In this document: positions 40 through 24,139 of the stretch, in pieces
Position numbering within the stretch: position 1 is the stretch's first letter
Layout: every line of letters begins with the position of its first letter
DNA from: Colwellia sp. 75C3
Lineage (GTDB): Bacteria; Pseudomonadota; Gammaproteobacteria; Enterobacterales; Alteromonadaceae
Direction of reading: 5' to 3'
DNA: 64,000 bases
Assembly (NCBI RefSeq): GCF_002836255.1
Contig: NZ_PJAU01000055.1
Coordinates: 186,001-250,000 of the forward strand
Translations under genes and position numbers: made by a program
The notes under the pieces: generated by a model
Databases searched by the model: none
Told to the model about the DNA's origin: nothing
The model's input: the letters and a program-made list of their open reading frames with translations, nothing else

Positions 40-3000
40 ATGAAAAATTATCGTCTATCACATATCAGTAGCGCGTTAGTCCTTGCTCTTGGGCTTTCTA
101 CATCGGTTATGGCCAATGTTACCACCTCTGCAATAAAGGGGCAGGTTGCAGGTCCAAATGGTAACCCAGCGGTTGGAACTACAGTTACTATTGTGCATGT
201 GCCATCAGGTACGAGTAAAACTGCAACAGTTAACGCAGCGGGTTTGTTCGTTGCCAAAGGTCTACGTGTAGGTGGACCTTACCGAGTTGTTGTTGATTCA
301 AATACATTTGAAGATGCCACAGTAAAAGATATTTATTTAACGCTGGGTGAAACATATCCTTTAAACGTAGCGTTAAATTCTCAAAGTGAAGTAGAAACAA
401 TCGTTGTAACAGGACGCTCTATTAGTATGCAGTCTGGCGGTACAGGACCTGCTGTTCATTTTAATGCCGATGACTTAAAAAATGCACCATCAATAAACCG
501 AGATATTAAAGATATCGTACGTATTGACCCACGCATTTATATTGATGAAAGCCGCAGTGATGCTATTCAGTGTGGTGGTGGTAACCCAAGATTTAACAGC
601 TTAACCGTTGATGGCGTTCGTATGAATGACAGCTTTGGTTTAAATGACAATGGTTATCCGACGACACGTATCCCTTTTTCATATGACTCAATTGATCAAG
701 TTTCGGTTGAGTTAGCTCCGTTTGATGTTAAATACGGTGGTTTCACCTCTTGTAACATTAACGCGGTAACAAAATCAGGGACAAATGAAGTCCACGGTGG
801 TGTGTTTTTCGATTACAGCAATGATTCTATGAAAGGCGATAGCATTGAAGGTGAACATCAAGACAATGGTGATTACGATGAAAAGCGTTATGGTTTCAAT
901 GTTGGTTTACCGTTAATTCAAGATACGTTATTTCTATATACCTCTTATGAAAAATTAGATGGTGTGCAATTATTTGAATATTCACCATTAGGCGATAATG
1001 TTTCTCAAGCTGATATCGACCGTGTAAACCAAATATCAATGAATAACTATGGTTATACTGCCGGTGGTACACCAGCAAGTATGCCTGTTGATGATGAAAA
1101 AATTCTTATAAAATTAGATTGGAATATTAGTGAAGACCATCGTGCGAGTCTTGTTTATAACTACAATGATGGTTTTAAATTAGATCAATCTGACGAATGG
1201 GGCATGACGCTAGACAACCATTTCTACGAGTCAGGCGCAGAGATGAATTCATTTGCTGCATCACTTAACTCTGATTGGTCTGATAATTTTTCAACAGAAG
1301 TAAGAGTTGGTCACACTGAACTTGACGGTAGACAGCGTTCATTGGATGCTGACAGCGGCTTTGGTGAAGTTCAAATAAAGCATAATGGTACCACTATTTT
1401 CTTAGGTCCTGATGACTCTCGTCAATCGAATGAAATGAACTGGGAAACAACTACTTTTAAACTTTCTGGTAGTTACTATTTAGATGAACATACCATTACA
1501 GGTGGTTATGAGTACGAAACGTTAACAGCATTTAACTTATTTATGCAACATACCGTAGGTGAGTATCGTTTTGGCTCTATCGACGACTATGAAGATGGAA
1601 TAGCAAGTGCGGTCTATTATAATAACTCTGCAGGTACCAATGTGCCGAGCGATGCTAGCCAAGAGTTTACTTATGGTCTGCATACCTTCTATATTCAAGA
1701 TGAATATACCCTATCTGACATCGATATGACGATAACTGCAGGTTTACGTTATGACCGTTATACCAGCAGTGATAATCCACGATATAATGCACAATTTGAA
1801 GAACGTTATGGCGTTAGAAATGACAAAAACATGGATGGTATTGATTTAATACAACCCCGTGTTGGTTTTAACTGGGCTGTGCAAGATAACTTAGAAGTAC
1901 GTGGTGGTTTCGGTCTTTATTCTGGTGGTAACCCTAACGTTTGGTTGTCTAATTCATATTCAAACGATGGTTTAGTCAACATCAGTGAACGTGCCAAATA
2001 TCACAAAGATGTGATACCAACAACGGTTAGACCAGATGGTGACAGGGATAAAACATTCTACAACTTATTTGAAACCCCATCGTCTGATCCGCGCGGTCCT
2101 GGTTTTGGTGTACCTCAAGTGATGGTAGATACAATTCAAGACCTAGATGAAGAAAGTGGTAATGGCTCTGTTAATGCAACGGATCCAAACTTTGAAATCC
2201 CATCAGAGTGGAAGTATGCATTAGGTGCTACTTACACGACTGACAACGACTATATTATTTCTGCAGATATTCTACATAATCGTAAGCAAAATTCAGCGAC
2301 TGTACTTGATTATAATTTAGAATATGGCGAGAAGACTTTTGATGGCCGTCCTACCTATCAATCAGTTACTCATGCCGATGGCATTGATAATGTACGCAAT
2401 GAATATGTTTTAACTAATACTAAAAGTGATGGCAGCTCTACTATTCTTTCATTAGCGTTAAGCAAAAGCTTTGATTTTGGTTTAGATGCTTCATTTGGTT
2501 ATTCTTTTACTAATTCTGAAGATGCTAACCCAATGACCAGTGCTGTTGCTGGTTCTAACTACGGTAACTTAGCAACTACTGATGCGCTTAATCCACCAAT
2601 CACCACGTCTAATTATGAGATCCCGCATCGTTTCACTATGAATCTTACTTATGGTATTGAGTTAATCGACGGGTTAACTACTCGCTTTAGCTTATTCGGC
2701 CAAGCAAGTGAAGGGCAAGCCTACTCATATACCTATGATGATTCGGATAGCGCTTTTGGTGACAGTAATTGGAATGGGGATCGTCAGTTAGTTTATATAC
2801 CAACAGTTGATGATGCGAATGTTGTTTACGGAGCTGACTTTGATAAAGAAGCGTTTGACGCTTTTGTTGCAGCTGAAGGGCTAGCCCGTGGTCAAACAAC
2901 AGGTCGTAATGCACAAAATGCTGATTGGCATGTAAGCTTTGATATCAAAATTAACCAAGAAATTCCTGGCTTAATGGAAGGCCATCGAGGCAATGCATTC

Positions 3001-3210
3001 TTTATCATTAAAAACGTAGGTAATATGTTAAATGATGATTGGGGTGTGATGAATCAGGGGCAATTTGTCGGTAATCGTATGGTTGAAATGTCAGTTCAAG
3101 ATGATGGTAAATACCTTTACAAAAGTTTTAATTCAGGCAACGAAAAGCAAAAAGCTTACAAAGACGCGTCTGTTTGGGAAATGCGTGTTGGTGTAAGTTA
3201 CGACTTCTAA
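40..3210 (+). CDS. Oar-type TonB-dependent outer membrane receptor
   Basis: A 1056-residue outer membrane receptor. A signal peptide ends near residue 25 (VMA/NVT). It is followed by a carboxypeptidase-regulatory-like beta-sandwich (about 30-105), a TonB-box-like ETIVVTGRS near residue 120, a plug domain, and a long beta-barrel ending in a terminal phenylalanine (SYDF), as barrel insertion requires. The sandwich plus barrel is the Oar/OmpA-related arrangement of TonB-dependent transporters. The start has an AGGAA ribosome site 7-10 bases upstream. Its substrate cannot be read from sequence. Its position directly before cdd-deoA suggests nucleosides, nucleotides or DNA fragments, but a strong terminator separates them, so this is inference. 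The promoter is mostly outside the window. Confidence 0.88.
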   Translation: MKNYRLSHISSALVLALGLSTSVMANVTTSAIKGQVAGPNGNPAVGTTVTIVHVPSGTSKTATVNAAGLFVAKGLRVGGPYRVVVDSNTFEDATVKDIYLTLGETYPLNVALNSQSEVETIVVTGRSISMQSGGTGPAVHFNADDLKNAPSINRDIKDIVRIDPRIYIDESRSDAIQCGGGNPRFNSLTVDGVRMNDSFGLNDNGYPTTRIPFSYDSIDQVSVELAPFDVKYGGFTSCNINAVTKSGTNEVHGGVFFDYSNDSMKGDSIEGEHQDNGDYDEKRYGFNVGLPLIQDTLFLYTSYEKLDGVQLFEYSPLGDNVSQADIDRVNQISMNNYGYTAGGTPASMPVDDEKILIKLDWNISEDHRASLVYNYNDGFKLDQSDEWGMTLDNHFYESGAEMNSFAASLNSDWSDNFSTEVRVGHTELDGRQRSLDADSGFGEVQIKHNGTTIFLGPDDSRQSNEMNWETTTFKLSGSYYLDEHTITGGYEYETLTAFNLFMQHTVGEYRFGSIDDYEDGIASAVYYNNSAGTNVPSDASQEFTYGLHTFYIQDEYTLSDIDMTITAGLRYDRYTSSDNPRYNAQFEERYGVRNDKNMDGIDLIQPRVGFNWAVQDNLEVRGGFGLYSGGNPNVWLSNSYSNDGLVNISERAKYHKDVIPTTVRPDGDRDKTFYNLFETPSSDPRGPGFGVPQVMVDTIQDLDEESGNGSVNATDPNFEIPSEWKYALGATYTTDNDYIISADILHNRKQNSATVLDYNLEYGEKTFDGRPTYQSVTHADGIDNVRNEYVLTNTKSDGSSTILSLALSKSFDFGLDASFGYSFTNSEDANPMTSAVAGSNYGNLATTDALNPPITTSNYEIPHRFTMNLTYGIELIDGLTTRFSLFGQASEGQAYSYTYDDSDSAFGDSNWNGDRQLVYIPTVDDANVVYGADFDKEAFDAFVAAEGLARGQTTGRNAQNADWHVSFDIKINQEIPGLMEGHRGNAFFIIKNVGNMLNDDWGVMNQGQFVGNRMVEMSVQDDGKYLYKSFNSGNEKQKAYKDASVWEMRVGVSYDF

Positions 3211-3347: not shown

Positions 3348-3363
3348 TTGACCATATGGTCAG
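3348..3363. promoter_or_regulatory. Predicted nucleoside-locus operator, site 1 (cdd-deoA)
   Basis: TTGACCATATGGTCAG contains a perfect 14-bp palindrome, TGACCATATGGTCA, 53 bases before the cdd start. Closely similar palindromes lie in the udk/deoB region and ahead of the nuclease lipoprotein. The recurrence is seen in the sequence; the operator role is inference and the regulator is unknown. Confidence 0.6.
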
Positions 3364-3415
3364 TAATGATATATTAATATAATAAATACAGTTGATTATC
3401 TAAAGGCCTGTAAAA

Positions 3416-3835
3416 ATGAATAAAAATGAAATAGCACGTTTTGATGAATTGTTACTAGCGGCAAAAGCCGCTTACCATTTGGCTTATGCCCCTTACAGCA
3501 ATTTTCATGTTGGCGCTGCAGCATTAACAAAAAATGGCAATATAGTTCAAGGTTGTAATGTTGAAAACGCTTCGTATGGCTTAACGGTTTGTGCAGAGCG
3601 TAACTGCATTAGCAATTCGGTAATTAATGGCGAGCAGGAATTTGAAGTGATTGTTGTTTATACCGAGCAAGACAAATTAACACCTCCGTGTGGTGCTTGT
3701 AGACAAGTGATCGCGGAATTTTTTGAACAATCAGCACCAGTGCTGTCCGTTAATCATAAAAATGAACAGAAAGTCTGGACAGTACAGGAATTACTACCAG
3801 ACGCATTCACCCCGAAAGATTTATTAGATTTATAA
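3416..3835 (+). CDS. cdd: Cytidine deaminase
   Basis: Zinc enzyme that hydrolyses cytidine and deoxycytidine to uridine and deoxyuridine, feeding pyrimidine salvage and catabolism. At 139 residues it is the short homotetrameric form, unlike the roughly 290-residue dimeric E. coli enzyme. The motifs are complete: CAE at 59-61 with the proton-shuttle Glu61, and PCGAC at 91-95, giving three cysteine zinc ligands (59, 92, 95). The NVENASYG substrate-binding stretch precedes them. The stop is followed after 11 bases by the deoA start, so the two form an operon, probably controlled from the palindrome just upstream. Confidence 0.96.
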   Translation: MNKNEIARFDELLLAAKAAYHLAYAPYSNFHVGAAALTKNGNIVQGCNVENASYGLTVCAERNCISNSVINGEQEFEVIVVYTEQDKLTPPCGACRQVIAEFFEQSAPVLSVNHKNEQKVWTVQELLPDAFTPKDLLDL

Positions 3836-3846
3836 GGATTTAATTC

Positions 3847-5166
3847 ATGTCAGTAAGCAATAAAATTATCCCGCAAGAAATTATTCGATTGAAACGCAAT
3901 GGTCAAGTATTAAATGAACAAGCGATAAATGGCTTTGTTACAGGTCTTGTTGATGGCAACTTTTCAGATAGTCAAGTTGGCGCTATGGCAATGGCTATTT
4001 TTCAACAGGGCATGACGATTGATGAGAGGGTAAACTTTACCAAGGCTATGATGCATTCAGGTGATGTGCTTAGCTGGGAAGGTTTTGACGGTCCTATTGT
4101 TGATAAGCATTCAACAGGCGGTGTGGGTGATAAAGTGAGCTTTATGTTAGCTGCTATTGTTGCTGCCTGTGGCGGTTATGTTCCTATGATTTCAGGCCGT
4201 GGTTTGGGTCATACTGGCGGTACTGCAGATAAGCTTGAAAGCATCGCTGGTTTTAATGTTCAACCAAGTATTAGCGAGTTTAAAAGCATTGTGAAGGACG
4301 TTGGCGTTGCCATTATTTCGCAAACCGATAATTTGGCACCAGCCGATAAACGTTTGTATTCTATTCGCGATGTTACCGCAACAGTAGAATCTATCCCGTT
4401 AATCACGGCTTCTATCTTATCTAAAAAGCTTGCTGCGGGTCTTGATGTTTTAGTGATGGATGTCAAAGTAGGCAATGGTGCCATGATGAATAATTTAGCT
4501 GATGCTAAAGCACTGGCCGAAAGTATTACCAGTGTTGCTAACGGTGCAGGCGTTAAAACACAGGCTATTATTACTGATATGAATCAAGTGCTAGGTACCA
4601 GTGCCGGTAACGCGATAGAAATGTCTGAAACGGCTAAATATTTAACAGGTAAACAACGTGAGCCACGGTTGCATAAAGTTGTAAAAGCGCTTGCCAGTGC
4701 AATGCTTATTAATACCAAGCTAGCTGATAATGAAAAAGATGCGGATAAAAAAATTGAACAAGTGTTAAGTTCCGGTTTAGCGGCTGAGACTTTTGAACGA
4801 ATGGTATCTGCATTAGGTGGACCGAAAAACTTTGTAGAAAAGCCTTGGGACTCTATGAAAAAAGCGAATTTTATCACCGAGGTGAGAGCATCACAGCATG
4901 GTTATCTTGCGGAAATGGATACTAGAGCAGTTGGTATGTCGGTTGTAGGTTTAGGTGGGGGCAGAACGGCACCAACGCAAAAGGTAGATCACAGTGTTGG
5001 CTTTGATCGGATATTACCTTTAGGTGTACAAGTGAATCGTGGTGAAGTCCTTGCGCGTATTCATGCTAAAGATGAAGATTCGGCTAATAGAGCTATTGAA
5101 CAGTTTAATAATGCGATTAGCTACTCTGAAGAGAGTCCTGAGTTGTCACCAGTGATATATTCATAG
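3847..5166 (+). CDS. deoA: Thymidine phosphorylase
   Basis: Splits thymidine or deoxyuridine with phosphate into the base and 2-deoxyribose-1-phosphate. The 439-residue length matches E. coli DeoA. The phosphate-binding signature KHSTGGVGDK, the SGRGLGHTGGT segment and the VMDVKVGNGAMM loop of the family are all present. Its ribosome site (AAGGA) overlaps the cdd stop codon region, so translation of the pair is tightly linked. The product deoxyribose-1-phosphate goes to DeoB and then DeoC, both encoded within 6 kb. Confidence 0.97.
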   Translation: MSVSNKIIPQEIIRLKRNGQVLNEQAINGFVTGLVDGNFSDSQVGAMAMAIFQQGMTIDERVNFTKAMMHSGDVLSWEGFDGPIVDKHSTGGVGDKVSFMLAAIVAACGGYVPMISGRGLGHTGGTADKLESIAGFNVQPSISEFKSIVKDVGVAIISQTDNLAPADKRLYSIRDVTATVESIPLITASILSKKLAAGLDVLVMDVKVGNGAMMNNLADAKALAESITSVANGAGVKTQAIITDMNQVLGTSAGNAIEMSETAKYLTGKQREPRLHKVVKALASAMLINTKLADNEKDADKKIEQVLSSGLAAETFERMVSALGGPKNFVEKPWDSMKKANFITEVRASQHGYLAEMDTRAVGMSVVGLGGGRTAPTQKVDHSVGFDRILPLGVQVNRGEVLARIHAKDEDSANRAIEQFNNAISYSEESPELSPVIYS

Positions 5167-5177
5167 ATAAAAAATAG

Positions 5178-5221
5178 GCTTAGTTGTTAAGTAATACCAA
5201 CTTAACAATTAAGCTTTTTTA
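5178..5221 (+). terminator. Terminator after deoA
   Basis: A 14-bp stem with one G-U pair (5178-5191 with 5201-5214) and a 9-base loop containing ATACCAA, followed by seven T residues. It ends cdd-deoA and faces the convergent tdk. Confidence 0.9.
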
Positions 5222-5244
5222 ACCTAGTGTGGCTTTAGTTTACT

Positions 5245-5823
5245 CTATTGCCAGACAAGTTTTTTAAAGTGAGCACGACAAAGCGGCTCATAACGTTCAT
5301 TACCACCTACTTCAACTTGCTCTCCAGCTTGTACTGCTTTGCCGTTGGCGTCTTGCCTGATAACAAAGTTAGCTTTTCTGCCACAGTGACATATCGTTTT
5401 TAATTCTACCAATTTGTCAGCCCAAGCCAGCAGGGCAGCACTACCTGAGAAAGTTTGTCCTAAAAAGTCAGTGCGTATGCCATAAGCCAGTACAGGAATA
5501 TGTAATAAATCGACTATATCGGTAAGCTGTTTAACTTGCTCAGTAGATAAAAACTGGGCTTCGTCGATAAGTACACAATCGATTTTTTCAGCTTGATTTT
5601 TTTGGTCAACATTGTTGAACAGGTTGATTTTTTCATCAAACAGAAAAGCGTCCGCATCAATACCTAAACGTGAAGCAACTTTACCTTTAGCAAATCTATC
5701 ATCAATTTGAGCCGTATAAATTGCGGTAGTTAAACCACGTTCTTGATAGTTATATGACGATTGTAATAGATGAGTTGATTTTCCCGCATTCATCGATGAG
5801 TAATAAAAATACAGTTGTGCCAT
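5245..5823 (-). CDS. tdk: Thymidine kinase
   Basis: Phosphorylates thymidine and deoxyuridine with ATP, the salvage route that competes with DeoA. At 192 residues it is the bacterial type II enzyme. The P-loop SSMNAGKST is at residues 9-17 and the Walker B-like IDEAQ at 86-90. The zinc lasso uses Cys145, Cys147 and Cys182; the family's fourth ligand is usually Cys, and here His185 may serve (CRAH). The gene is convergent with deoA and lies 126 bp downstream of deoC on the same strand, so it could be read from the udk-nupC-deoC operon or from its own promoter. Confidence 0.96.
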
Positions 5824-5949
5824 TTTTTAGTTCTTTTTTATAAATATGATGTTTACAACAATACCCAGTTATTGGAAATTCATGCTTTAGCGTTCGGGTA
5901 TCGTTGTAATATTATTAACTGCCAGTTAATAGCAGCTATTCAAGGGGGA

Positions 5950-6723
5950 TTAGTAGTTACTTGATGTCTTGGTGTTACTTGTATGTCCTAGTGTCTCTAA
6001 TAAGCTGACAAGTAAGCTGCTAGCACCAAATCTAAAGTGATTAGCGTCAGCCCATTCTCGTCCTAAGATACTATCGGCTAAATCAAGATAAATAGCGGCA
6101 TCTTCTGCGTTTCTCACGCCACCTGCAGGTTTAAAACCTACTGATGTATTTTTTTGCTTTATGACTTCTAACATGATTTGTGCAGCGGTTGGCGTTGCAT
6201 TGACAGGGACTTTACCAGTAGATGTTTTAATAAAGTCAGCACCCGCATTGATAGATATTTCACTGGCTTTACGTATTAATTCTTCAGATTTAAGTTCACC
6301 GGTTTCAATAATTACTTTTAGTTTTGCAGAATTAGCACAGGCTTTTTTGCAAACATTAACCATATCAAAACCAATGGTTTCGTTGCCTTGCATTAACGCG
6401 CGGTAAGGAAATACCAAATCAACTTCATCTGCACCATAAGCAACAGCGGCTTTAGTTTCAGCTAAGGCAATATCAATATCGTCATTTCCATGGGGAAAAT
6501 TTGTGACGGTTGCTATTTTTACGTGCGGTGTTTGTTGCGCTTTTAATGCTTTTTTTGCAATAGGGATAAAGCGCGGGAAAATACAAATTGCTGCTGTTTC
6601 GCCAGCAGGTGATTTGGCTTGACTACAAAGGTCAATAATTTCTTGATCAGTTTCTGTGTTGCTAAGGCTAGTTAAATCCATCAACGATAGAGCGCGCTGA
6701 GCAATATTTTTAAGATCAGACAT
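5950..6723 (-). CDS. deoC: Deoxyribose-phosphate aldolase
   Basis: Cleaves 2-deoxyribose-5-phosphate to acetaldehyde and glyceraldehyde-3-phosphate, the last step of deoxynucleoside sugar catabolism. The 257 residues match the E. coli-type class. The Schiff-base lysine is in FIKTSTGK (Lys166), the second active-site lysine in GFKPAGG (Lys198), and the relay aspartate in DEVD (Asp102). It is the last gene of udk-nupC-deoC, 23 bp after nupC. The ATG has a GGAAC ribosome site. Confidence 0.97.
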
Positions 6724-6746
6724 GATTTTTTGTTCCTATTGTATTT

Positions 6747-7991
6747 TTATAATGAAATGAATATGCCAGCAATTGCAGCGCTCATTAGGTTGGCTAATGT
6801 AGCAGCAAGCATTGCTCGTAATCCTAATCTAGCAATATCATGGCGGCGACTTGGTGCCATAGACCCGATGCCACCCAGTAAAATGGCTATTGACGATAAA
6901 TTAGCAAAACCACATAAAGCAAAGGTAACAATCGCTTGAGTCGCAGGGCTTAACGTATCTTTAATTTCAACGAAATTAACGTAGGCAAAGAATTCATTAA
7001 CGATAATCTTTTGACCAATAAAACTACCGGCTTGCAGCATTTCATTTGCAGGTACACCAATAACAAAAGCAAAGGGTGCGAATAAGTAACCTAAGAAAAA
7101 TTCTATGGTGATATCTTCATAACCAAACAAACCAAATAAGCCACCAACGATGGTATTTAGTAATGCTATTAGGGCAATGAAAGCAAGTAGCATAGCGCCA
7201 ACATTAACTGCCAACTTAAGACCTGATGCTGCACCTGATGCTGCTGCATCAATAACATTGGTTGGTCTATCATTTTCATCATCATAATCGATAGGTTTAT
7301 TGACTATTTTATCATGCTCAGTTTCAGGGCAAATAATCTTGGCCATTAACAAACCGCCAGGCGCAGCCATAAATGATGCAGCGATCAGGTACTTTAGTTC
7401 AATACCAAGCCCGGCATAACCCGCTAAAATTGAACCTGCTACAGAGGCCAAACCACCAACCATGATGGCAAAAAGCTCTGATTGAGTCATTGTTTTAATA
7501 TATGGGCGGATTATAAGTGGGGCTTCGGTTTGACCAACAAAAATATTAGCTGTTGCAGAAAGTGATTCAGGCTTACTGGTCTTTAAAAGTTTTTGTAATC
7601 CGCCGCCAATGATCTTAATAACCCATTGCATTATGCCGAGATAATAAAGCACCGCAATTAAAGAAGAAAAGAAAATAATGTTAGGTAAAACTCTGACAGC
7701 AAAAACAAAACCAACACCATTGTCAAACATGGCATCAGTGCCTAAACCTCCAAAAAGAAAGTTGATGCCTACTTTTGCGCTATCAATAACACTTTGCACG
7801 CCATTGGTCATAGACAGTAAAACGTCTTTACCAAAGGGAACATATAATACAAAAGCGCCAAGCAATATTTGCAGAGCAAAAGCTAAACCGACTGTTCGTA
7901 AGTTAATAGACTTTTTGCCGCTTGATAACGCATAGGCGATACCTAATAAAACGACAACGCCTAGCAGACCTCTGAGAGCACCTAATTCCAT
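6747..7991 (-). CDS. nupC: Concentrative nucleoside transporter (NupC/CNT family)
   Basis: Inner-membrane symporter that brings nucleosides into the cytoplasm using an ion gradient. At 414 residues it matches bacterial CNT proteins. It starts with hydrophobic helices (LRGLLGVVVLLGIAYALS). The family's VGQTEAPLIIRPY motif, which forms part of the nucleoside site, and the gate segment GVPANEMLQAGSFIG are both present. It sits between udk and deoC with 23-bp gaps on both sides, so import, phosphorylation and sugar breakdown are co-transcribed. Specificity (pyrimidine or broad, H+ or Na+) is not decided by what I can see. Confidence 0.94.
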   Translation of the reverse strand: MELGALRGLLGVVVLLGIAYALSSGKKSINLRTVGLAFALQILLGAFVLYVPFGKDVLLSMTNGVQSVIDSAKVGINFLFGGLGTDAMFDNGVGFVFAVRVLPNIIFFSSLIAVLYYLGIMQWVIKIIGGGLQKLLKTSKPESLSATANIFVGQTEAPLIIRPYIKTMTQSELFAIMVGGLASVAGSILAGYAGLGIELKYLIAASFMAAPGGLLMAKIICPETEHDKIVNKPIDYDDENDRPTNVIDAAASGAASGLKLAVNVGAMLLAFIALIALLNTIVGGLFGLFGYEDITIEFFLGYLFAPFAFVIGVPANEMLQAGSFIGQKIIVNEFFAYVNFVEIKDTLSPATQAIVTFALCGFANLSSIAILLGGIGSMAPSRRHDIARLGLRAMLAATLANLMSAAIAGIFISL

Positions 7992-8014
7992 GAATACCTC
8001 TTTTTATTTAATTA

Positions 8015-8665
8015 TTATTGTTGTGGGGGTAATTGTGAAAGTTGACGAATTTTTGCTTTGATCACCTCAATTGCCATTCTATTTTTACCACCTCGGGTGA
8101 TAACAATATCAGCCCAAGCTTTAGAGGGTTCAATATATTGGTGGTACATAGGCCTAACGGTTGCTAAATATTGGTTAGTAACCGATTCAATACTGCGACT
8201 ACGTTCAACTAAGTCTCGTTTAATTCTTCTGATCAGGCAAATATCTAATGGTGTGTCCATATAGACTTTAATATCAAAACACTCTCTTAATTCTTTATTA
8301 GACAGTAGTAAGATACCTTCCACTAAAATTATTCTAGTGGGTAAAAACTCATTTGTTTCATCTACACGAGTATGTGTCTTATAACAATAAACGGGGCTAT
8401 GAATAGCCTGATTGTTAGTAAGTTGCTTTAAGTGTTTTGATAACAGTTCATGTTCAAATGCATTGGGGTGATCATAGTTCGTTTGCTCACGCTCTTGCAT
8501 CGACAAGTGTGATTGATCACGATAATAAGCATCTTCATAAATAATAGAAATACCATTTTCACCCAGTTCTTCAATAAGTTCATCATGAATAGTTTTGGCA
8601 AATAGTGTTTTACCTGATGCTGATGGGCCAGCGATAGCAATAATGGTTGGTTTAATAGTTTTCAA
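8015..8665 (-). CDS. udk: Uridine/cytidine kinase
   Basis: Phosphorylates uridine and cytidine to UMP and CMP. The 216 residues match E. coli Udk. The P-loop GPSASGKT is at residues 13-20, followed by EDAYYRDQ and NYDHPNAFEH, which place the nucleoside, and the RRIKRD lid-region arginines. It is the first gene of udk-nupC-deoC and is divergent from deoB. The shared upstream region carries a copy of the TTGACCANNTGGTCAA palindrome. Confidence 0.96.
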   Translation of the reverse strand: MKTIKPTIIAIAGPSASGKTLFAKTIHDELIEELGENGISIIYEDAYYRDQSHLSMQEREQTNYDHPNAFEHELLSKHLKQLTNNQAIHSPVYCYKTHTRVDETNEFLPTRIILVEGILLLSNKELRECFDIKVYMDTPLDICLIRRIKRDLVERSRSIESVTNQYLATVRPMYHQYIEPSKAWADIVITRGGKNRMAIEVIKAKIRQLSQLPPQQ

Positions 8666-8869
8666 TGTTCAGCCTGTTGTCAAAGCAAATATCAATAATT
8701 AAAGTCGAGTTACTATCTTGAGCTTTGTTAATGATAGTCGCCAGATGTTATACCAATTGGAATAATTAATAAATTACCCCATTTAGTATGACTATACTTT
8801 AGATAAATAATAAGCCAGTTGAAAAAGCTTTATTTACCCGTAAATGTAAAGGTGTTAAATTAACACAAC

Positions 8870-8885
8870 TTGACCAGTTGGTCAT
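8870..8885. promoter_or_regulatory. Predicted nucleoside-locus operator, site 2 (udk / deoB)
   Basis: TTGACCAGTTGGTCAT contains TGACCA-GT-TGGTCA. It lies 67 bp before deoB and 205 bp before udk in their divergent promoter region, so one site could control both transcripts. The same motif lies ahead of cdd and ahead of the nuclease lipoprotein. Confidence 0.6.
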
Positions 8886-8951
8886 ATTATTTGACGAATT
8901 ATTTTAATCTTTGTCGTTTTTTGTAATTAGAAATGTAAAAAAGGAAATATT

Positions 8952-10166
8952 ATGTCGCGTGCAATAATTATGGTTATTGATAGTTTTGGTATCGGTTATT
9001 CTCCTGATGCAGTTGATTTTGGCGATGTTGGTGCAAACACCTTTGCTAACCTGTCTCGTGCCTATTACGAAGAAACGGGTAAAGAAATTTACTTACCCAA
9101 CTTATCCGCACTAGGACTGATAAAGGCTTGTGAACAAGCATCTAATCAAACATTTCCTTATCAGGGCCAAGAGCCAAGCAAAGGCGCTTATGGTTTCGCA
9201 CAAGAAATTAGTACAGGTAAAGATACACCCAGTGGTCACTGGGAGATGGCAGGCGTGCCAGTGCTTTTCGATTGGGGATATTTTACGGACAAAAAAAATA
9301 GTTTTCCCACGTCGTTAATTGAAAATATTAACCGTGAAACGGGCTTTGAAGGAATATTAGGTAATTGTCATGCTTCGGGTACCGAAATTCTTCAGCGTTT
9401 AGGAGAAGAACATATTAAAACAGGAATACCTATTTGTTATACCTCGGCAGATAGTGTTTTTCAAATAGCAGCCCATGAAGAGCATTTTGGTTTAGATAAC
9501 CTTTATAAGTATTGTGAAACAGTTCGAGAATTACTGGGTGATTTAAACATAGGCCGTGTTATTGCAAGACCTTTCATAGGTGATAGCCCTGATAACTTTG
9601 CTAGAACAGGTAATCGAAGGGATTACTCAGTGTTACCGCCAGCGCCTACCGTACTTGATAAAGTATCACAGGCAGGTACTCATGTTATCAGTGTTGGTAA
9701 AATTGCTGATATTTTCGCTCATCAAGGCATTGATGAAAAAACAAAAGCGACGGGGCTTGATGCACTTTTTGATGCCACCTTAGAGCATATTAAGACGGCA
9801 CAAGACAATTCACTCATTTTCACTAACTTGGTTAACTTTGATCAAGACTTTGGTCACAGGCGTGATGCTATAGGCTATGCAAGAGAGCTTGAAGCGCTTG
9901 ATGTTCGTATTCCAGAGCTTTACCAGACGATGTCTGCAGATGATGTGCTGTTTTTTACAGCCGATCACGGTTGTGATCCTACGTGGCCGGGAAGTGAGCA
10001 TACCAGGGAATATGTTCCCATTATTGCTTATCATCATCTGGTCCGATCTGTTAATATAGGTAACCGAAAAACTTTCGCTGATTTAGGGCAAACCATTGCG
10101 GAACTATTTAATGTCGAGGCTATGGATTACGGCACGAGTTTCTTGTCTGACTTATACGTCAAGTAG
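8952..10166 (+). CDS. deoB: Phosphopentomutase
   Basis: Interconverts (deoxy)ribose-1-phosphate and (deoxy)ribose-5-phosphate, linking the phosphorylases (DeoA, DeoD) to DeoC and the pentose phosphate pathway. It is a 404-residue enzyme of the alkaline-phosphatase superfamily. The metal-binding motifs are visible: IDSFGIG at the N-terminus (Asp10), DTPSGHWEM around the catalytic threonine, and TADHGCDP with SEHTREYVP at the C-terminus. It is a single gene with its own promoter region. The AAAAGGAA stretch before the ATG is a good ribosome site. Confidence 0.97.
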
Positions 10167-10309
10167 TTCAATAGCTTATATCGCGATAAATGCAGTAACA
10201 GGCATAATCTCTACTACACTATAAAAGCAACAAAATATAATTAAAACATAACGATAAAAAATATATAAAACTGAATAAAAAAACAAAAACAGTCCTTGGG
10301 AGTAAACGA

Positions 10310-12619
10310 ATGAAAATGTTTAAACAAAATGCAATATCACTCTGTGTGCAAGCGTCACTAATGGCGAGTGTTGCTGCTGTTTCTAGTAGTGCTTTCGCAG
10401 CAGATGAAGTCGTAAAAAAAGAAAAAGTTGTCGGCATTGAGGTTATCAATGTAACTGCGCGTAAACGAGTTGAAAATGTGCAAGAAGTACCTATTGCTGT
10501 TACGGCATTACAAGGTGATAATCTTGATGCTTATAGTTCTGCAGCGATGGATATCCGCTTTTTAAATGCAAAAATACCTAGCCTGTCAGTGGAGTCTTCT
10601 TTTGGACGAACTTTCCCGCGTTTTTATATGCGTGGTTTAGGTAACTCTGATTTCGATTTAAATGCTTCTCAACCTGTTTCTTTAGTTGTTGATAATGTCG
10701 TACAAGAAAATCCTATTTTAAAAGGTTTTCCAGTTTTTGATCTTGAAAGAGTTGAAGTGCTGGCTGGACCACAAGGTACCTTATTTGGTAGAAATACTCC
10801 TGCTGGCCTAGTAAAAATTGACTCGGCAAAGCCTTCTCAAGACTTGGATGGTTTTGCATCTTTATCATATGGCAGTAAAAACACAACAGATCTTAGAGCT
10901 GCTGTTGGTGGTGGATTAACGGATGAACTTTCTGCCCGCGTTTCAGTTTTACGTCAAGATCGTGATAATTATATTGATAATATGGCACCGGGTTTTGAGC
11001 AAAACGATGTATTAGGTGGTTATACTGACCAAGCGCTTCGACTACAATTTCTATATGAAGATGATAACTTTAATGCCTTATTCAATTATCACATGCGCGA
11101 TCTTGACGGAAAACCAGTAGCATTTTATGCCAATGGAATTAAGACGGGGAGTAACAGCTTAGATGATAATTTTAGCCGTGATACCGTTTACCATGATTCA
11201 GCTTCACGTGCTACCCAGCAGGTAGAAACTGAAGGTGCTAGTTTAAAATTAGAATTTGAATTAGATCAACATACCATCACTTCAATAACCGGTTATGAAA
11301 GCGCTGAATTGTATTCTCGTGCAGATGTTGATGGTGGTTATGGTTGTAATGGTTTTAGTTGTCCACCGGTCCCACTAACTAGTGGCCCAGGAGTTATTAA
11401 TGTTAGCTCTGAAACAGCAGATGCTATTCCAGATCATGTTCAAACTACTCAAGAATTAAGGCTTACTAGTAATTTTGATGGAGATTTAAATTATCAAGTA
11501 GGGCTTTTCTATTTTAATGAAGATTTGACCATTGAAAGTTTTTCATACGATGCGTTAGCTGCTTTTGGCGGACCAAAAGGGCTTGAAAATGGCTATGTTA
11601 TCCAAGAACAGGAAACTACTGCATGGGCAGTTTTCGGCTCTGTTGATTATGATTTAACAGATAAAACGTCAGTGACCGTAGGTCTGCGTTATTCTGATGA
11701 TGATAAAGAATATAATAACGAAAGAACTCAATCACCACTAGGCTTTTTAGGATTTCCTGATCATGTCACAGGTGCAATAAATACCAGCGATAGCCATGTG
11801 AGTTGGGATGTCAGTATTTCACATAAATATACCGACGATATAAATTTATATGCGCGTGTTGCTGATACATTTAGAGCTCCTAGTATACAAGGACGTTCAT
11901 TATTTGCTTTTGATGACGGTATATCTGTTGCTGATTCTGAAACTATTATTTCATATGAAGCAGGTATCAAATCTGACATTTTAGATAATATGGGTCGTAT
12001 AAACGCATCAGTTTTTTATTACACCATGAATGATCAACAGGTCACTTCTGTTGGTGGTGATGGTAGTAATACAGCACAATTACTTAATGCTGATGAGACT
12101 GTGGGTTATGGTTTTGAAATTGATTCGCAATTTGTTGTTACTGATAATTTAATAGTTACGGCTAACGCTAGTTATAACAACACACAAATCAATGATAGTA
12201 CGTTGACAGTACCTGTATGTGCTTCTTGTATTGTGACTGATGGATTAGTCGATGGTCGAGCCATCATTGATGGTAATAGCTTACCACATGCGCCAGAGTG
12301 GATTATCAACTTCACTGCACGATACACACAAGAAATTGGTGAAGGTGAGTTCTATGCTTACACTGATTGGTCGTATCGTGATGAAATTAGCTTCTTCTTA
12401 TATAATTCAGTAGAGTTTACTGGAGAGTCATTGTTAGAGGGTGGTGTTCGAACTGGTTACACATGGGATGGTGATGATAAAGATTATGAAGTTGCTTTAT
12501 TTGTAAGAAATCTTACTGATGAACAACAGGCAATTGGCGCAGTTGATTTTACTAACAATACCGCGATTGTTAATGAAGAACGTTTTTACGGCGTTGAATT
12601 TAAAGTTAACTTCTTTTAG
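10310..12619 (+). CDS. TonB-dependent outer membrane receptor
   Basis: A 769-residue receptor. The signal peptide ends near residue 30 (SSAFA/ADEV). A TonB-box-like IEVINVTARKR is followed by a plug (VPIAVTALQG to the VEVLAGPQGTLFGRN signature) and a barrel ending in KVNFF. The plug signature is that of siderophore-type and general TonB receptors, with no Oar-type sandwich domain. It lies between deoB and deoD, so a nucleoside or purine substrate is plausible, but no operator-like palindrome is seen in its 143-bp upstream region. Ligand unknown. Confidence 0.88.
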   Translation: MKMFKQNAISLCVQASLMASVAAVSSSAFAADEVVKKEKVVGIEVINVTARKRVENVQEVPIAVTALQGDNLDAYSSAAMDIRFLNAKIPSLSVESSFGRTFPRFYMRGLGNSDFDLNASQPVSLVVDNVVQENPILKGFPVFDLERVEVLAGPQGTLFGRNTPAGLVKIDSAKPSQDLDGFASLSYGSKNTTDLRAAVGGGLTDELSARVSVLRQDRDNYIDNMAPGFEQNDVLGGYTDQALRLQFLYEDDNFNALFNYHMRDLDGKPVAFYANGIKTGSNSLDDNFSRDTVYHDSASRATQQVETEGASLKLEFELDQHTITSITGYESAELYSRADVDGGYGCNGFSCPPVPLTSGPGVINVSSETADAIPDHVQTTQELRLTSNFDGDLNYQVGLFYFNEDLTIESFSYDALAAFGGPKGLENGYVIQEQETTAWAVFGSVDYDLTDKTSVTVGLRYSDDDKEYNNERTQSPLGFLGFPDHVTGAINTSDSHVSWDVSISHKYTDDINLYARVADTFRAPSIQGRSLFAFDDGISVADSETIISYEAGIKSDILDNMGRINASVFYYTMNDQQVTSVGGDGSNTAQLLNADETVGYGFEIDSQFVVTDNLIVTANASYNNTQINDSTLTVPVCASCIVTDGLVDGRAIIDGNSLPHAPEWIINFTARYTQEIGEGEFYAYTDWSYRDEISFFLYNSVEFTGESLLEGGVRTGYTWDGDDKDYEVALFVRNLTDEQQAIGAVDFTNNTAIVNEERFYGVEFKVNFF

Positions 12620-12647
12620 CATTAAAATTTCATAGTTTAAGCAATGA

Positions 12648-12676
12648 AAAAGGGTTAGCAAATTGCTAACCCTTTT
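12648..12676. terminator. Bidirectional terminator between the TonB receptor and deoD
   Basis: A 12-bp perfect stem (AAAAGGGTTAGC / GCTAACCCTTTT) with a five-base loop. A-rich and T-rich flanks on the two sides let it serve both convergent genes. Confidence 0.9.
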
Positions 12677-12706
12677 ATTATGTTAAATTAAACGCTATTT
12701 GAAGAC

Positions 12707-13411
12707 TTATAACAAGCTTTCCAGTGTCAATTCCATCATATCTTTGAACGTTGTTTCTCGTTCTTCTGAAGTTGTTTTCTCACCGGTTTTGATATGATCA
12801 CTAACAGTTAATACGGTTAATGCTTTTTTACCGTATTCAGCAGCAACGCCATAAAGACCAGCTGCTTCCATTTCTACCGCTAGAACTCCATACTTTTCCA
12901 TAGTCGCAAACATTTCAGGCTGCGGTGTATAAAATAAATCAGCAGTAAAAATATTACCTACATGTACAGGCTTACCCAATTTTTCAGCAGTATCGACAAC
13001 ACTTTTTAATAAAGAGAAGTCGGCACACGCAGCAAAATCAACACTATGAAAGCGTTGTCTGTTAACGTTTGAGTCTGTACTCGCAGCCATACCAATGACA
13101 ATATCACGGATCTTTATATCATCACGTACCGCGCCACAAGAGCCAATGCGTATGATTTTTTCTACGCCATAATCTTTATAAAGTTCAGTCGCATAAATTG
13201 ATATGCTTGGTATGCCCATACCTGAACCCATAACAGAGACACGTTTACCTTTATAGGTACCTGTGTATCCAAGCATGTTACGCACTTGGGTGATGCATTT
13301 AGCATCATCTAGAAAGTTGTCGGCAATAAATTTTGCTCTAAGGGGATCGCCTGGCATTAAGACTGTTTCTGCAAATTCGCCGGCTTGTGCTTCAATATGT
13401 GGTGTTGGCAT
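12707..13411 (-). CDS. deoD: Purine nucleoside phosphorylase, DeoD type
   Basis: Splits purine (deoxy)ribonucleosides with phosphate into base and (deoxy)ribose-1-phosphate. The 234 residues and the opening ([20 protein letters not shown]) match the hexameric bacterial family. RIGSCGAV (phosphate/ribose site) and VEMEAAGLY (ribose-binding Glu) are present, as is the SDH segment with the catalytic aspartate. It is transcribed alone, convergent with the TonB receptor. A perfect 16-bp palindrome lies 37 bp ahead of the start. Confidence 0.97.
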
Positions 13412-13447
13412 AAGAGTTATCCTTTTAATGTTAAGTATAATACTAAA

Positions 13448-13463
13448 CGGATTAATTAATCCG
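13448..13463. promoter_or_regulatory. 16-bp perfect palindrome ahead of deoD
   Basis: CGGATTAATTAATCCG is self-complementary over all 16 bases and lies 37 bp upstream of the deoD start, a typical operator position. It differs from the TTGACCANNTGGTCAA palindromes, so if it is an operator it binds another regulator. No known motif recognised. Confidence 0.4.
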
Positions 13464-13651
13464 ATGGTATAACTCAGTAAGTTTCTAGCCCAGACTAGTT
13501 AAGTCATAGTTCTATCAAGGATTTTTTACTGATAAAGTGGTGTTAATTTCTACTGTTCTTTACTGTAGGTTGCAATGCTTATTTAACAATAAACATTGCG
13601 CCGTTCATAATAATGCTAAGTGAAGTATCGTTCAAGTAGACAATATTATTA

Positions 13652-13965
13652 TATACCCAAGCTACTTCAATATGTAGGATTCAGCTGGAATTAGAAACGT
13701 CTTTAGGCAAGGCATTGATTGAAGATAATAGTTATTCAGGAGAATATGCTCCTGCATTCTCTAATAAGCTACATCCATGCTGCGTTATTGTTTAAATCAA
13801 TGACGCAGCATACAACGTTTCTAAACCTGCCCTTGGGAACTACTGAGCAAAACATGTCCACCGTAGCATCTGTTTTTAAGGGAATGACCCTTAATAAAAA
13901 GAAGCGCCTTGATCATGATTCGCTCAGTCGTCCTGAAACTAACATCTTGAAGTTGCTTGTGTATG
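13652..13965. mobile_element. MITE-like element with nested inverted repeats
   Basis: Terminal inverted repeats 13652-13674 and 13943-13965 match at 19 of 23 positions (left end TATACCCAAGCTACTTCAAT). Inside, further arms are nested: TAGAAACGT (13692-13700) with ACGTTTCTA (13815-13823), CATTGATT (13713-13720) with AATCAATG (13795-13802), and AGGAG/CTCCT around 13738-13753. No transposase-like frame is present and I could not find a clean target duplication. It fills the deoD-add gap. Calling it a non-autonomous element is inference from structure. Confidence 0.6.
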
Positions 13966-13968
13966 CTA

Positions 13969-14976
13969 TTACTTTAGTGTGTTTTGTTTAATATTGATAA
14001 GTGCTGTTTTTTCTTGTTCAGATAAAAAACTCATTTTCACTGCGTTGCGTTGTAATTGACTGATTTGATCTGTATTCAGCCCAAGTACGTCTCTTGCTAC
14101 CTGAAATTCACCTGCTAGCTCAATATTTTCAACAGCAGGGTCATCAGTGTTTAAACAAACCGTAAGACTATTTTCTAAAAAGGTTTTCAGAGGATGTACT
14201 GCTAGGTCTTTAATCGTACCGGTTTGGTAGTTTGAAGTAAGACAAGACTCTATGCTTATCTCATTTTCTCGCATGTAATCCATTAACTTTTGATCGCTAG
14301 CACAAGCTACACCATGACCAATGCGCGTCGCGCCTAATGTTTTAATAGCATGCCAAACGCTTTCAGGACCAGCGGCTTCACCGGCATGTATACTGACATT
14401 AAGACCTGCATTATTGACTTGTTTAAAGTGGCTTTCAAAAAGACTACCTGGAAAATTGTATTCATCGCCAGCGAGATCTATCGCAACGAGATCGTCCTTA
14501 TAGGCGAGTAGGGCATCGAGTTCACTTTGACAATGTTCAACACCAAAAGTACGACTTAAAATACCCATTAAATTTATCTTAGTGGCGAATTTCTTTCGAC
14601 CTTGATTAACGCCTTCAATAATTGCTTCAACCACACCTTCAATAGGCAAGTTGTGACTCATGGCGATGTAATAAGGAGAAAAACGTAATTCAGCATAATC
14701 TATGTTAGCTATACTAGCATCTTCGACATTTTCAAAACCAATACGTACAACATCATCAAGGGTTTTAATAACGCCGACACCCCAATCGAGCTTTTTCAAA
14801 AAGGCCATTAGGTCTGCTTCACTGTCGGTAATTTGTACGTGAGGCAGAAAAGCGTCGAAATTATCTTCGGGTAATTTGATATTGTTTTGTTGTGCTAATT
14901 GCCAAATGGTTTTCGGGCGAATATTGCCATCTAAATGACGATGTAAATCAACAAGGGGAAGTTGGTTATTAAACAT
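13969..14976 (-). CDS. add: Adenosine deaminase
   Basis: Hydrolyses adenosine and deoxyadenosine to inosine and deoxyinosine, which DeoD can then phosphorolyse. The 335 residues match E. coli Add. The zinc ligands and catalytic residues are visible: HRH at 12-14, SIHAGEAAG with the metal-binding histidine and catalytic glutamate, RIGHGVAC, and LNTDDPAV with the metal-binding aspartates. It ends immediately beside the MITE-like element, so the native downstream sequence has probably been replaced or displaced. Confidence 0.95.
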   Translation of the reverse strand: MFNNQLPLVDLHRHLDGNIRPKTIWQLAQQNNIKLPEDNFDAFLPHVQITDSEADLMAFLKKLDWGVGVIKTLDDVVRIGFENVEDASIANIDYAELRFSPYYIAMSHNLPIEGVVEAIIEGVNQGRKKFATKINLMGILSRTFGVEHCQSELDALLAYKDDLVAIDLAGDEYNFPGSLFESHFKQVNNAGLNVSIHAGEAAGPESVWHAIKTLGATRIGHGVACASDQKLMDYMRENEISIESCLTSNYQTGTIKDLAVHPLKTFLENSLTVCLNTDDPAVENIELAGEFQVARDVLGLNTDQISQLQRNAVKMSFLSEQEKTALINIKQNTLK

Positions 14977-15112
14977 GATAAAAGTTTGTCCTAGCAGTGA
15001 AAGTGTAATGGGTAAAATAACTGCAATTAATATTGAAGATTACCCACGTTACATTCTTATTAATTATAGACTTCATTAGTCTGTTTTAAAATCATACAAA
15101 GTGATTGAATTA

Positions 15113-16066
15113 TTATAGCTTAACCTTTACCGATATTGGGCAATGGTCGCTTAATGTTCTAGATAATTCTTTGGTGTATTTTGGCTTGAAAATCAGCTGT
15201 GCGAACGAAGCATCAACATAGTTCTCTTTGGCTTTAGGACTGAAAATAATATGGTCTATATAGTCTTTATAATAACCACCCCAACAAGCCGAGTTAGCTG
15301 TTGCTGTTGGTGTCCATAGTGCTTCTTGTCCTTCATCATTTAATGCTTGCCATAGACCTTTATCTTCAGGGTATTTCAAGGCAATATCTTGAGCAAAACG
15401 TCGATTAAAATCACCTAAAACGATATATGAAGCACTTTTCTCAGCGTGCAAATCAATCCATTGTTCTAACGGTTTTATTTGTTTGCTGAGCTTAGTACAG
15501 GCCTCTTTTCGCTTCTCTTCTTTAATAGATGTGTTTGGCATCGCCTCAACACTATCATTGTCTAATGGTGCGGTAAAACAGCCAGATTTTAAATGTACGG
15601 CTAATATATGGAGTGTTTTATCGTCTTTAGTGAGAGTAATATCCATACCATGGCGAACTTTACCAACATCCAAGGCTTTATATTCTTTTGCTGTAACTTT
15701 TAAGCCACTCGATTTTTTAACCGCTACGCCAACACGTTGTACCCAGTCTTTAGTAGAAAAGTAATAGTCATACTCGTTGCCAAAAACTTTACGTGCCCAA
15801 TATTCACTTTCAACTTCTTGCAAAGCGATAACATCAGCATTGAGTTGTTTGGCATAGCGCGCTAATTTTTGGTAATCAGCATCAGTACGCTTATTATATT
15901 CATGTGAGCCTAACCAAGCGATGTTCCATGAGGCAACTTTTATCTCATCGGTATTCTGTTTCGCGGCTCTCATCACATCACTTTCTGACGAAGTGTTTGT
16001 AGTTGAATGACTACTGCAGCCAGCAATAGTTAATAATAAAGTGATCAATATTAATTTTTTCATCAA
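15113..16066 (-). CDS. Lipoprotein of the endonuclease/exonuclease/phosphatase family
   Basis: A 317-residue protein with a lipoprotein signal peptide (LLTIAGC, lipidated Cys at 16 or 17 depending on the first Met). The mature domain carries the Mg-dependent fold shared by DNase I, exonuclease III and phosphodiesterases: ASWNIAWLG, IALQEVE (metal Glu), AVHLKSG, LGDFNRR, DHIIFS and the terminal SDHCPI with the catalytic His. The probable job is to cut DNA, nucleotides or phospho-esters at the cell surface. The exact substrate is not decided. A TTGACCATAGGGTCAA palindrome 58 bp upstream links it to the nucleoside genes. Confidence 0.85.
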   Translation of the reverse strand: MMKKLILITLLLTIAGCSSHSTTNTSSESDVMRAAKQNTDEIKVASWNIAWLGSHEYNKRTDADYQKLARYAKQLNADVIALQEVESEYWARKVFGNEYDYYFSTKDWVQRVGVAVKKSSGLKVTAKEYKALDVGKVRHGMDITLTKDDKTLHILAVHLKSGCFTAPLDNDSVEAMPNTSIKEEKRKEACTKLSKQIKPLEQWIDLHAEKSASYIVLGDFNRRFAQDIALKYPEDKGLWQALNDEGQEALWTPTATANSACWGGYYKDYIDHIIFSPKAKENYVDASFAQLIFKPKYTKELSRTLSDHCPISVKVKL

Positions 16067-16123
16067 AGTTCTCTTTAGTTTATCGCTTAATTTGAGTATG
16101 AAGTAGTATCTTATTCCCCATAC

Positions 16124-16139
16124 TTGACCATAGGGTCAA
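16124..16139. promoter_or_regulatory. Predicted nucleoside-locus operator, site 3 (nuclease lipoprotein)
   Basis: TTGACC-ATAG-GGTCAA, perfect 6-bp arms, 58 bp ahead of the nuclease-like lipoprotein start. It shares its arms with the sites before cdd and deoB. Confidence 0.55.
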
Positions 16140-16222
16140 GAATTTTGTTTGCCACATTACACTACTTCTAGGTTAAGGCACAACCTGTATGAATAAAAAA
16201 GTAAAACAGCGTCCGGTCTTCA

Positions 16223-17215
16223 TTAATTTGAGCAACCAATATTGGGTAAATTTGGATTAATCAGACCATTTATAATAAATGGTCTGTCAGATGACTCTTT
16301 ATCAAAGGTAACTTTAGTTGCATCAATATATCGAAAGTCACCTGCAGCATTTAAATGCCATAGGTTATTGTCTAATTTTTCAAAGCAAAACTCTCCCGTA
16401 TCTCCATGGCTAATGAGTACAGGTTTATTGAGTCGTTTGGCTAAATCTATAAAGGCTTGACGGTAAAAAGCAAAGGCATCGCATGTTTTTAACGATGTAT
16501 TGTCACAAGCATCACTTTCTAATACCGACTGTTGATAAATGTCAGCTTGAAAGCCGATAATTAAGGCATCAAAGTTTTTTGACTTATCTTCAATAGTCTT
16601 TAACCAGGCAAGATTATTTTCGTCTCGTTCATCAACCCTCTTGATAGCATTTTCATGTTTTGATTTCCCGATGTTAGCTCTACCATTACTGGTGCCAACG
16701 ATATGTAGCGTGCTTACTGCTAGACGGTCGTTAATCCATAACTTATTTTCTATTTGTTCAGGTTGCGTCTTTATTGAAGGTAAATTTTTGGTTAATAGTG
16801 GCGGAGTATGAAACATCAATTTAGTTAAAAAATTGAGTCGTTCTAGTTCATCAAAACTGTAAAGTAAGAACATTCGATCACAATCAGTCCAATCATTATC
16901 TCCAGGCGTGTAAATGATCTTACCTGGGTAGATTTGAGTTAAAAGTGCTTTATGTTCTCTTAATAAGTCATCAGTGCATGACTTACCACCATTTTTAAAA
17001 TCACCAAGGTGCATAACTACACTGGGGCTGGCTTCATTGATAAGGCGATAAAGTATGCCAGTAGGTCCTTGTAACATGCTTTTTTCTTTATCGCTGTAGG
17101 GTGTATCGGCCAATATAATGATTGTTTGTGCCCAAAGTGGTGAGCTACAGCTTGCAAGTAATAAAAAGACGATGTGTAAACAACGTTTTTGCCATGAATA
17201 AATGTTGAAAGTCAT
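16223..17215 (-). CDS. Exported calcineurin-like metallophosphoesterase
   Basis: A 330-residue protein with an N-terminal signal peptide (HIVFLLLASCSSPLWAQ). Metallophosphoesterase motifs follow in order: an Asp in IILADTPYS (the usual DxH is changed to DTP), VMHLGDFKNG, TPGDNDWTDC in place of GNH(D/E), IIGFQAD, and VLISHGDTG. Metal ligands are thus partly altered but recognisable. It probably dephosphorylates nucleotides or other organic phosphates in the periplasm. It may also be a surface lipoprotein (ASC at the signal end), though the A-x-A site fits type I cleavage. It is on the same strand as the nuclease lipoprotein, with a weak operator-like site 93 bp upstream. Confidence 0.72.
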   Translation of the reverse strand: MTFNIYSWQKRCLHIVFLLLASCSSPLWAQTIIILADTPYSDKEKSMLQGPTGILYRLINEASPSVVMHLGDFKNGGKSCTDDLLREHKALLTQIYPGKIIYTPGDNDWTDCDRMFLLYSFDELERLNFLTKLMFHTPPLLTKNLPSIKTQPEQIENKLWINDRLAVSTLHIVGTSNGRANIGKSKHENAIKRVDERDENNLAWLKTIEDKSKNFDALIIGFQADIYQQSVLESDACDNTSLKTCDAFAFYRQAFIDLAKRLNKPVLISHGDTGEFCFEKLDNNLWHLNAAGDFRYIDATKVTFDKESSDRPFIINGLINPNLPNIGCSN

Positions 17216-17307
17216 CTGTAGCCTTTTAAATCAAGCGAAATATTAAGAAAATAAAAGCTAACCTAGCGAAGAATGTTAATTGATGCAAGTTAGTTTGATA
17301 TAATTAA

Positions 17308-17323
17308 CAAACCAAATGGTCAG
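17308..17323. promoter_or_regulatory. Weak operator-like site, site 4
   Basis: CAAACCAAATGGTCAG matches TTGACCANNTGGTCAA at 10 of 14 defined positions; the right half is intact and the left half is degenerate. It lies between the divergent phosphoesterase and 2OG oxygenase genes. A single good half-site can occur by chance. Confidence 0.3.
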
Positions 17324-23099: not shown

Positions 23100-23153
23100 G
23101 CTATTACTCTGTGACGTAGCTATTTAAGCTAACTTTAAGACAATACTATGTTA

Positions 23154-24124: not shown

Positions 24125-24139
24125 ATTGTACTCTTTAAC

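Follow-up and report, generated by a model that had tools for sequence, protein, structure and literature searches.

Three near-identical palindromes mark a nucleoside salvage locus in the genome of Colwellia sp. 75C3 (5.4 Mb in 60 contigs) and are quite probably operators of a RutR-type repressor of the TetR family, P0001 with its paralogue P0002, that would be induced by a pyrimidine base. The locus lies in the 64-kb stretch of contig C59 that was analyzed here as the window (C59:186001-250000, window base 1 being C59:186001), and the palindromes precede cdd-deoA, the divergent udk and deoB genes, and the gene for a putative exported lipoprotein of a nuclease family. In Escherichia coli, RutR is known for sensing uracil in the control of pyrimidine breakdown. 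Our best reading is that a repressor of this type has been co-opted in the Colwelliaceae for the use of nucleosides and extracellular DNA, the same operator apparently being reused for the scavenging of extracellular DNA, which can supply carbon, nitrogen, and phosphorus.

Probable operators of the window and their conservation

Palindromes were scored as matches out of the 14 positions of the consensus TTGACCAnnTGGTCAA, the letters of which we take to be those of the RutR operator. An earlier note on this DNA had described near-identical palindromes at cdd-deoA, at udk/deoB, and at the nuclease-like lipoprotein gene, with no other full copy in the window. Both points are borne out, as the three sites match at 13/14 each and no further window position reaches 12/14. 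Thirty dinucleotide shuffles of the window gave a mean of 0.2 sites of at least 12/14 and none of at least 13/14. The weaker copy that had been placed ahead of an exported phosphoesterase gene fared otherwise: it matches at 10/14, and because the window holds 50 positions of at least 10/14 (26.8 in the shuffles), it is indistinguishable from chance.

3348..3363, no strand: operator 1, TTGACCATATGGTCAG, 13/14; center 60 bp 5' of cdd; left half TTGACC is a predicted -35 box
8870..8885, no strand: operator 2, TTGACCAGTTGGTCAT, 13/14; between divergent udk and deoB; center 74 bp 5' of deoB and 212 bp 5' of the udk open reading frame (ORF)
16124..16139, no strand: operator 3, TTGACCATAGGGTCAA, 13/14; center 65 bp 5' of the lipoprotein ORF
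17308..17323, no strand: weak copy, CAAACCAAATGGTCAG, 10/14; chance level
3348..3375, + strand: predicted sigma-70 promoter TTGACC-16-TATATT, from a consensus match alone; overlapped by operator 1

The overlap with the -35 box at cdd is the layout that would be expected of repression by occlusion; the region holds four promoter-like matches, compared with a mean of 2.4 in shuffles.

Lack of conservation at orthologous promoters had been named in the earlier note as grounds for giving up the shared operator. Promoters were taken as the 300 bp 5' of reference-matched genes, with matches below 80 bits and starts with less than 150 bp upstream dropped, and came from 80 loci, the best 80 of 219 relatives, which are for the most part closely related and cannot be counted as independent. 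Sites of at least 12/14 were found in 46 of 52 cdd promoters, 13 of 13 deoB promoters, and 18 of 21 udk promoters, compared with 10 of 468 promoters of control genes that had no reference match. Since seven of those ten control sites are in more distant RutR-type loci, several of them before genes that read as xanthine-dehydrogenase-like or purine-permease-like, the true background rate may be lower than 10/468. One hundred permuted palindromes scored on the same promoters gave means of 0.11 (cdd), 0 (deoB), and 0 (udk), with a maximum of 3/52. Across 29 distinct cdd promoters, information content is 1.67 bits per column within the 16 bp versus 0.51 to 0.52 in the flanks.

Allowing at most one mismatch, the 16-mer occurs at seven places in the genome, compared with none for a reversed control pattern. 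The window locus and a second locus, on contig C3, together account for five of the seven, and the other two are within long open frames.

The site also follows the regulator through the family. Among 118 sampled genomes, at identity thresholds of 62% for the regulator and 50% for DeoA, 39 contain the regulator, all 39 of them with DeoA, and by tally a further 25 contain DeoA without the regulator. Sixty-five deoA loci were scored over 900 bp upstream (363 bp for one), 40 of them from 38 regulator-bearing genomes (two being second copies, and the present genome excluded) and 25 from genomes without the regulator. A site of at least 12/14 stands at cdd-deoA in 31 of the 40 loci with the regulator versus 2 of the 25 without it (Fisher P = 2e-8). 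Tallied by hand at the genus level, with two mixed genera counted as regulator-bearing and one genus entering via its second copy, the figures are 15/18 versus 1/11 (P = 1.3e-4). The two exceptions, in which a site but no regulator was found, are both assemblies of 85% completeness, so that absence of the regulator is unsure there.

The RutR-type regulators

A TetR-family search of the whole genome gave 18 matches, 17 of them above the cut-off. The candidate regulator is encoded just outside the window.

C59:184720-185352, - strand: P0001, RutR-type TetR protein of 210 amino acids, about 0.65 kb left of the window and divergent from the Oar-like receptor gene

The P0001 gene stands in a row with a nuclease-family gene and an alkaline phosphatase gene. 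P0002, encoded in the C3 locus, is 89% identical to P0001. The earlier note had expected one shared regulator not encoded in the window; the location is as expected, and the paralogue raises the number of genes to at least two. The best named relative of the regulator is from an uncultured Colwellia (96%). Both proteins combine TetR_N with a YcdC-like C-terminal domain (PF08362; 160.1 bits for P0001 and 159.1 bits for P0002, cut-off 25). The best sequence match of P0001 in the PDB is E. coli RutR (E value, 1e-36), and E. coli RutR entries are also the closest solved structures to its predicted fold (TM-score, 0.74 to 0.78; mean predicted local distance difference test score, 77.8).

In the accessible text of a study of E. 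coli RutR, the residues that contact uracil are W77, Y97, W167, Q171, and Q179 (PMC10891134). Four of these are conserved in an alignment of 71 rows with at least 60% identity, in which some genomes are present twice: W77 in 71/71, W167 in 69/71, Q171 in 71/71, and Q179 in 71/71 rows. Among 32 rows below 50% identity, E. coli included, Y97 is kept in all 32 and position 179 is E in 19, which suggests a purine-sensing branch among the distant RutR-type proteins. A tree of 62 rows, including P0001, P0002, and 20 nucleoside-type rows drawn at random, placed the nucleoside-type regulators in one clade with support of 100/100. E. coli RutR falls outside that clade and joins a different row on a very long branch, its placement being unsure.

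A third RutR-type protein is encoded at C23:225468-226070 (L120:8962-9588). It is 42% identical to P0001 and has Q at position 179, and its gene is close to those for malate synthase G and urate oxidase and to further genes that probably act in purine catabolism. The palindrome TTGACCGATCGGTCAA precedes a gene that reads as xanthine-dehydrogenase-like at two Thalassotalea loci that also contain a RutR-type gene (L214:18444 and L215:18490, upstream).

Candidate target genes in the window and on contig C3

Gene names without a Pfam entry in the following rows were read from translations; orthologues were found for cdd and deoA.

40..3210, + strand: Oar-like outer-membrane receptor, with the P0001 gene divergent to its left, outside the window
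3416..3835, + strand: cdd, cytidine deaminase
3847..5166, + strand: deoA, thymidine phosphorylase
5245..5823, - strand: tdk, thymidine kinase
5950..6723, - strand: deoC, deoxyribose-phosphate aldolase
6747..7991, - strand: nupC-type nucleoside transporter
8015..8665, - strand: udk, uridine kinase
8952..10166, + strand: deoB, phosphopentomutase
10310..12619, + strand: TonB-dependent receptor 3' of deoB (PF00593, PF07715)
12707..13411, - strand: deoD, purine nucleoside phosphorylase
13969..14976, - strand: add, adenosine deaminase
15113..16066, - strand: putative exported lipoprotein of the endonuclease/exonuclease/phosphatase (EEP) family (PF03372), with export read from the N terminus

Directly upstream of deoD, no site of at least 11/14 was found within the window.

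The earlier note had the regulator joining salvage enzymes to nuclease and phosphatase genes. Counted in 67 nucleoside-type loci (L204, slightly below the 60% cut, was excluded), an EEP nuclease-family gene follows the regulator gene within 150 bp on the same strand in 64, an alkaline phosphatase gene follows the EEP nuclease-family gene in 61, and both features are present in 60. The link is thus supported for these two gene families and unsupported for the exported phosphoesterase, which was dropped as a member of the regulon: its site is at chance level, and in a search run without a positive control the product of the gene at 16223-17215 had no match at an E value of 1e-20 in 30 regulator-bearing relatives.

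Thirteen of 30 relatives proved to have an orthologue of the lipoprotein nuclease of the window. Upstream scores are 12, 11, 12, and 14 out of 14 for the four orthologues that adjoin nucleoside genes and 8 to 11 for the nine without nucleoside neighbors. This difference suggests that the lipoprotein gene comes under control upon joining the locus, though the cases are few, at four with two from one genus.

The second locus brings further candidate targets.

C3:105000-132000 (L049, L050): second DNA-utilization locus; cdd, deo, and nup names assigned by similarity to the window genes

It carries cdd-deoA-deoB, phosphoglucose isomerase, transaldolase, nupC, purine nucleoside phosphorylase, and transketolase genes. 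It also encodes a fusion of an EEP nuclease with an alkaline phosphatase, an Oar-like receptor, and two endonuclease I proteins, which are probably secreted, judging from their N termini. Sites stand at the nuclease/phosphatase fusion (14/14), cdd (12/14), one endonuclease I gene (12/14), transketolase/receptor (12/14), and the phosphorylase (11/14). A 13/14 site further upstream of cdd overlaps an opposite frame as called, and one further 11/14 site falls inside a frame. The perfect site, at C3:116042, was assigned to the fusion, about 125 bp away, because the start of nupC is at a distance of about 450 bp; nupC was accordingly set aside as a direct target. Outside the two loci, carA has a 12/14 site 204 bp upstream in this genome. 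A carA site of at least 11/14 was found in just 3 of 15 regulator-bearing genomes and in 0 of 14 other genomes with carA, and carAB was dropped as a conserved target.

Proposed mechanism, alternatives, and known systems

In the mechanism that we propose, a ligand-free repressor dimer would occupy the 16-bp site, which overlaps the promoter or lies next to it (at cdd it covers the -35 box), and would block cdd-deoA, udk/deoB, and the lipoprotein nuclease gene; on C3 it would block the nuclease-alkaline phosphatase fusion, endonuclease I, purine nucleoside phosphorylase, and transketolase genes. Upon uptake of DNA or nucleosides, pyrimidine bases would be freed by cytidine deaminase and the phosphorylases. 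Uracil (or thymine) would then fill the conserved pocket, the repressor would dissociate from its site, and the pathway that leads from extracellular DNA to pentose phosphates would be induced. The inducer is probably a pyrimidine base. A wider proposal, which we hold at about even confidence, is that the RutR-type regulator has become a master switch for an entire "eat DNA" program in the Colwelliaceae, comprising endonuclease, alkaline phosphatase, nucleoside uptake, phosphorolysis, and transketolase and triggered by a DNA-derived pyrimidine base. The present genome would then contain two near-identical copies of the switch, one per locus, plus a third RutR-type protein whose recognition helix has been altered for purines.

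Several observations weigh against control of the palindromes by P0001 and P0002. The flanks of the deoB and udk sites are conserved too (1.0 to 1.55 versus 1.75 to 1.83 bits per column in the site), and close kinship therefore explains part of the agreement at these two promoters. Raw 16-mer counts are not raised in every regulator-bearing relative (0 versus 1 in G147 and 0 versus 3 in G160); because genome-wide counting alone is clear in this genome but not in all relatives, we relied on the orthologous promoters. Nine of the 40 regulator-bearing deoA loci score below 12/14, with G221, G072, G219, and G257 at 8 to 9, and in G072 a 13/14 site is found between the regulator and the receptor instead. 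The earlier note had suggested looking for the site ahead of the regulator's own gene, and the promoter of P0001 matches at just 11/14 in this genome. In the 67 nucleoside-type loci, the regulator's own promoter has a site of at least 12/14 in 11 and of at least 11/14 in 35 (controls, 10/468 and 19/468), a distribution that makes self-control likely, through a weaker site. As to the ligand, P0001 and P0002 (173.6 and 169.9 bits) far miss the 368-bit cut-off of the NCBIfam RutR equivalog TIGR03613, and Y97 is replaced in 71/71 rows of the pocket alignment (F in 64 and I in 7), for which reasons the ligand could differ from that of E. coli RutR. Uracil, not thymine, is given as the relevant ligand of the E. 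coli protein in the available part of one report (PMC6245113); because Y97 is replaced here, we kept both bases as candidates. Finally, the third RutR-type protein, on C23, might bind the same sites.

That the operators belong to this more distant protein, and not to P0001 or P0002, is improbable. Its genomic neighbors are urate oxidase and other probable purine genes, whereas P0001-type genes lie in the nucleoside locus, and its recognition stretch reads RANIHYYF versus KANVLYYF in P0001, a difference (RANIH versus KANVL) that rules out an identical recognition helix in all three RutR-type proteins. Genomes G197 and G238, which have distant RutR-type matches only, lack a cdd site (scores of 9 and 9). 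In its favor is G202 (C13:23900-26800, L298), where a protein of the C23 branch with the same RANIHYYF stretch is encoded beside cdd-deoA, with a 14/14 site; the regulator may have been exchanged within the family in this case.

It is a little less probable still that an unrelated factor binds the palindromes and that the RutR-type gene is merely colocated. Presence of the site tracks the RutR-type gene in the 118-genome sample, and the palindrome has the form that we take to be the RutR box, with the E. coli rutA-rutR intergenic region matching TTGACCAnnTGGTCAA at 11/14. Such a factor could be a Crp-family nucleoside regulator, for which there is a parallel in Shewanella: the accessible text of PMC3223726 presents DeoR* and PnuR, both of the Crp family, as predicted regulators of candidate nucleoside phosphorylases and transporters, a similar pathway placed under a different family from the TetR regulator here. 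Least credible is an account without a regulator, in which the palindromes would be repeats that arose by chance, -35 boxes, or small hairpins. The left half does double as a -35 box at cdd, and every operator copy was also scored as a terminator-like stem by the scanner. This explanation is already contradicted by the present data, as the conserved columns at cdd fall mainly within the 16 bp and permuted versions of the motif show no conservation.

Control by the RutR-type repressors P0001 and P0002 can be set beside several known systems. RutR-type control via such an operator is already known. E. coli RutR (YcdC) has a TetR fold and a YcdC-like C-terminal domain, as do P0001 and P0002, and binds a palindrome of about 16 bp (PMC10891134, in the part available), as predicted for the proteins here; K52 and N54 of the recognition helix described in the same text are kept, along with W77, W167, Q171, and Q179 of the pocket. 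The Colwellia regulators differ from E. coli RutR in overall sequence (about 35 to 36% identity), in having F or I for Y97, and in the genes marked by the site, which are nucleoside, nuclease, and phosphatase genes, with carAB weakly marked, and not the rut operon. No match to RutA was found in this genome by a search whose control does find E. coli RutA, so that the E. coli target operon is absent here.

In the accessible portion of the report by Leyn et al. (2016), RutR was predicted in 68 genomes of 13 groups, with 743 target genes and taxon-specific motif changes, and the function of these regulons is given as pyrimidine catabolism (PMC5343134), versus the nucleoside and DNA scavenging proposed here. 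Part of the present regulon may already be listed among the per-genome targets of that study (Table S3). In the open-licence literature searched, no published description of RutR-type control of nucleoside or DNA scavenging was found. Purine-type RutR-like regulators of the same order are members of this protein family, too; in several cases a site precedes the regulator's own gene, and at some of the loci a site precedes a xanthine-dehydrogenase-like gene. They differ from the nucleoside-type regulators in standing beside probable purine genes and, among the rows below 50% identity, in having E179 (19/32) and Y97 (32/32). The nucleoside repressors CytR and DeoR belong to the LacI or DeoR family, whereas the candidate regulator, which alone was compared with them, belongs to the TetR family. 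The analysis names a regulator, defines an operator, and lists targets, and it singles out two residues of the pocket, at positions 97 and 179, for testing a change of ligand.

Farther along the window, from translations only, three ORFs at 18503-20971 read as a PxpA/PxpB/PxpC (5-oxoprolinase) operon, and a cluster for a cbb3 oxidase and copper-ATPase assembly extends over 22380-31890. Two Crp/FNR-like regulators are encoded within the latter cluster, at 22380-23099 and 31105-31890.

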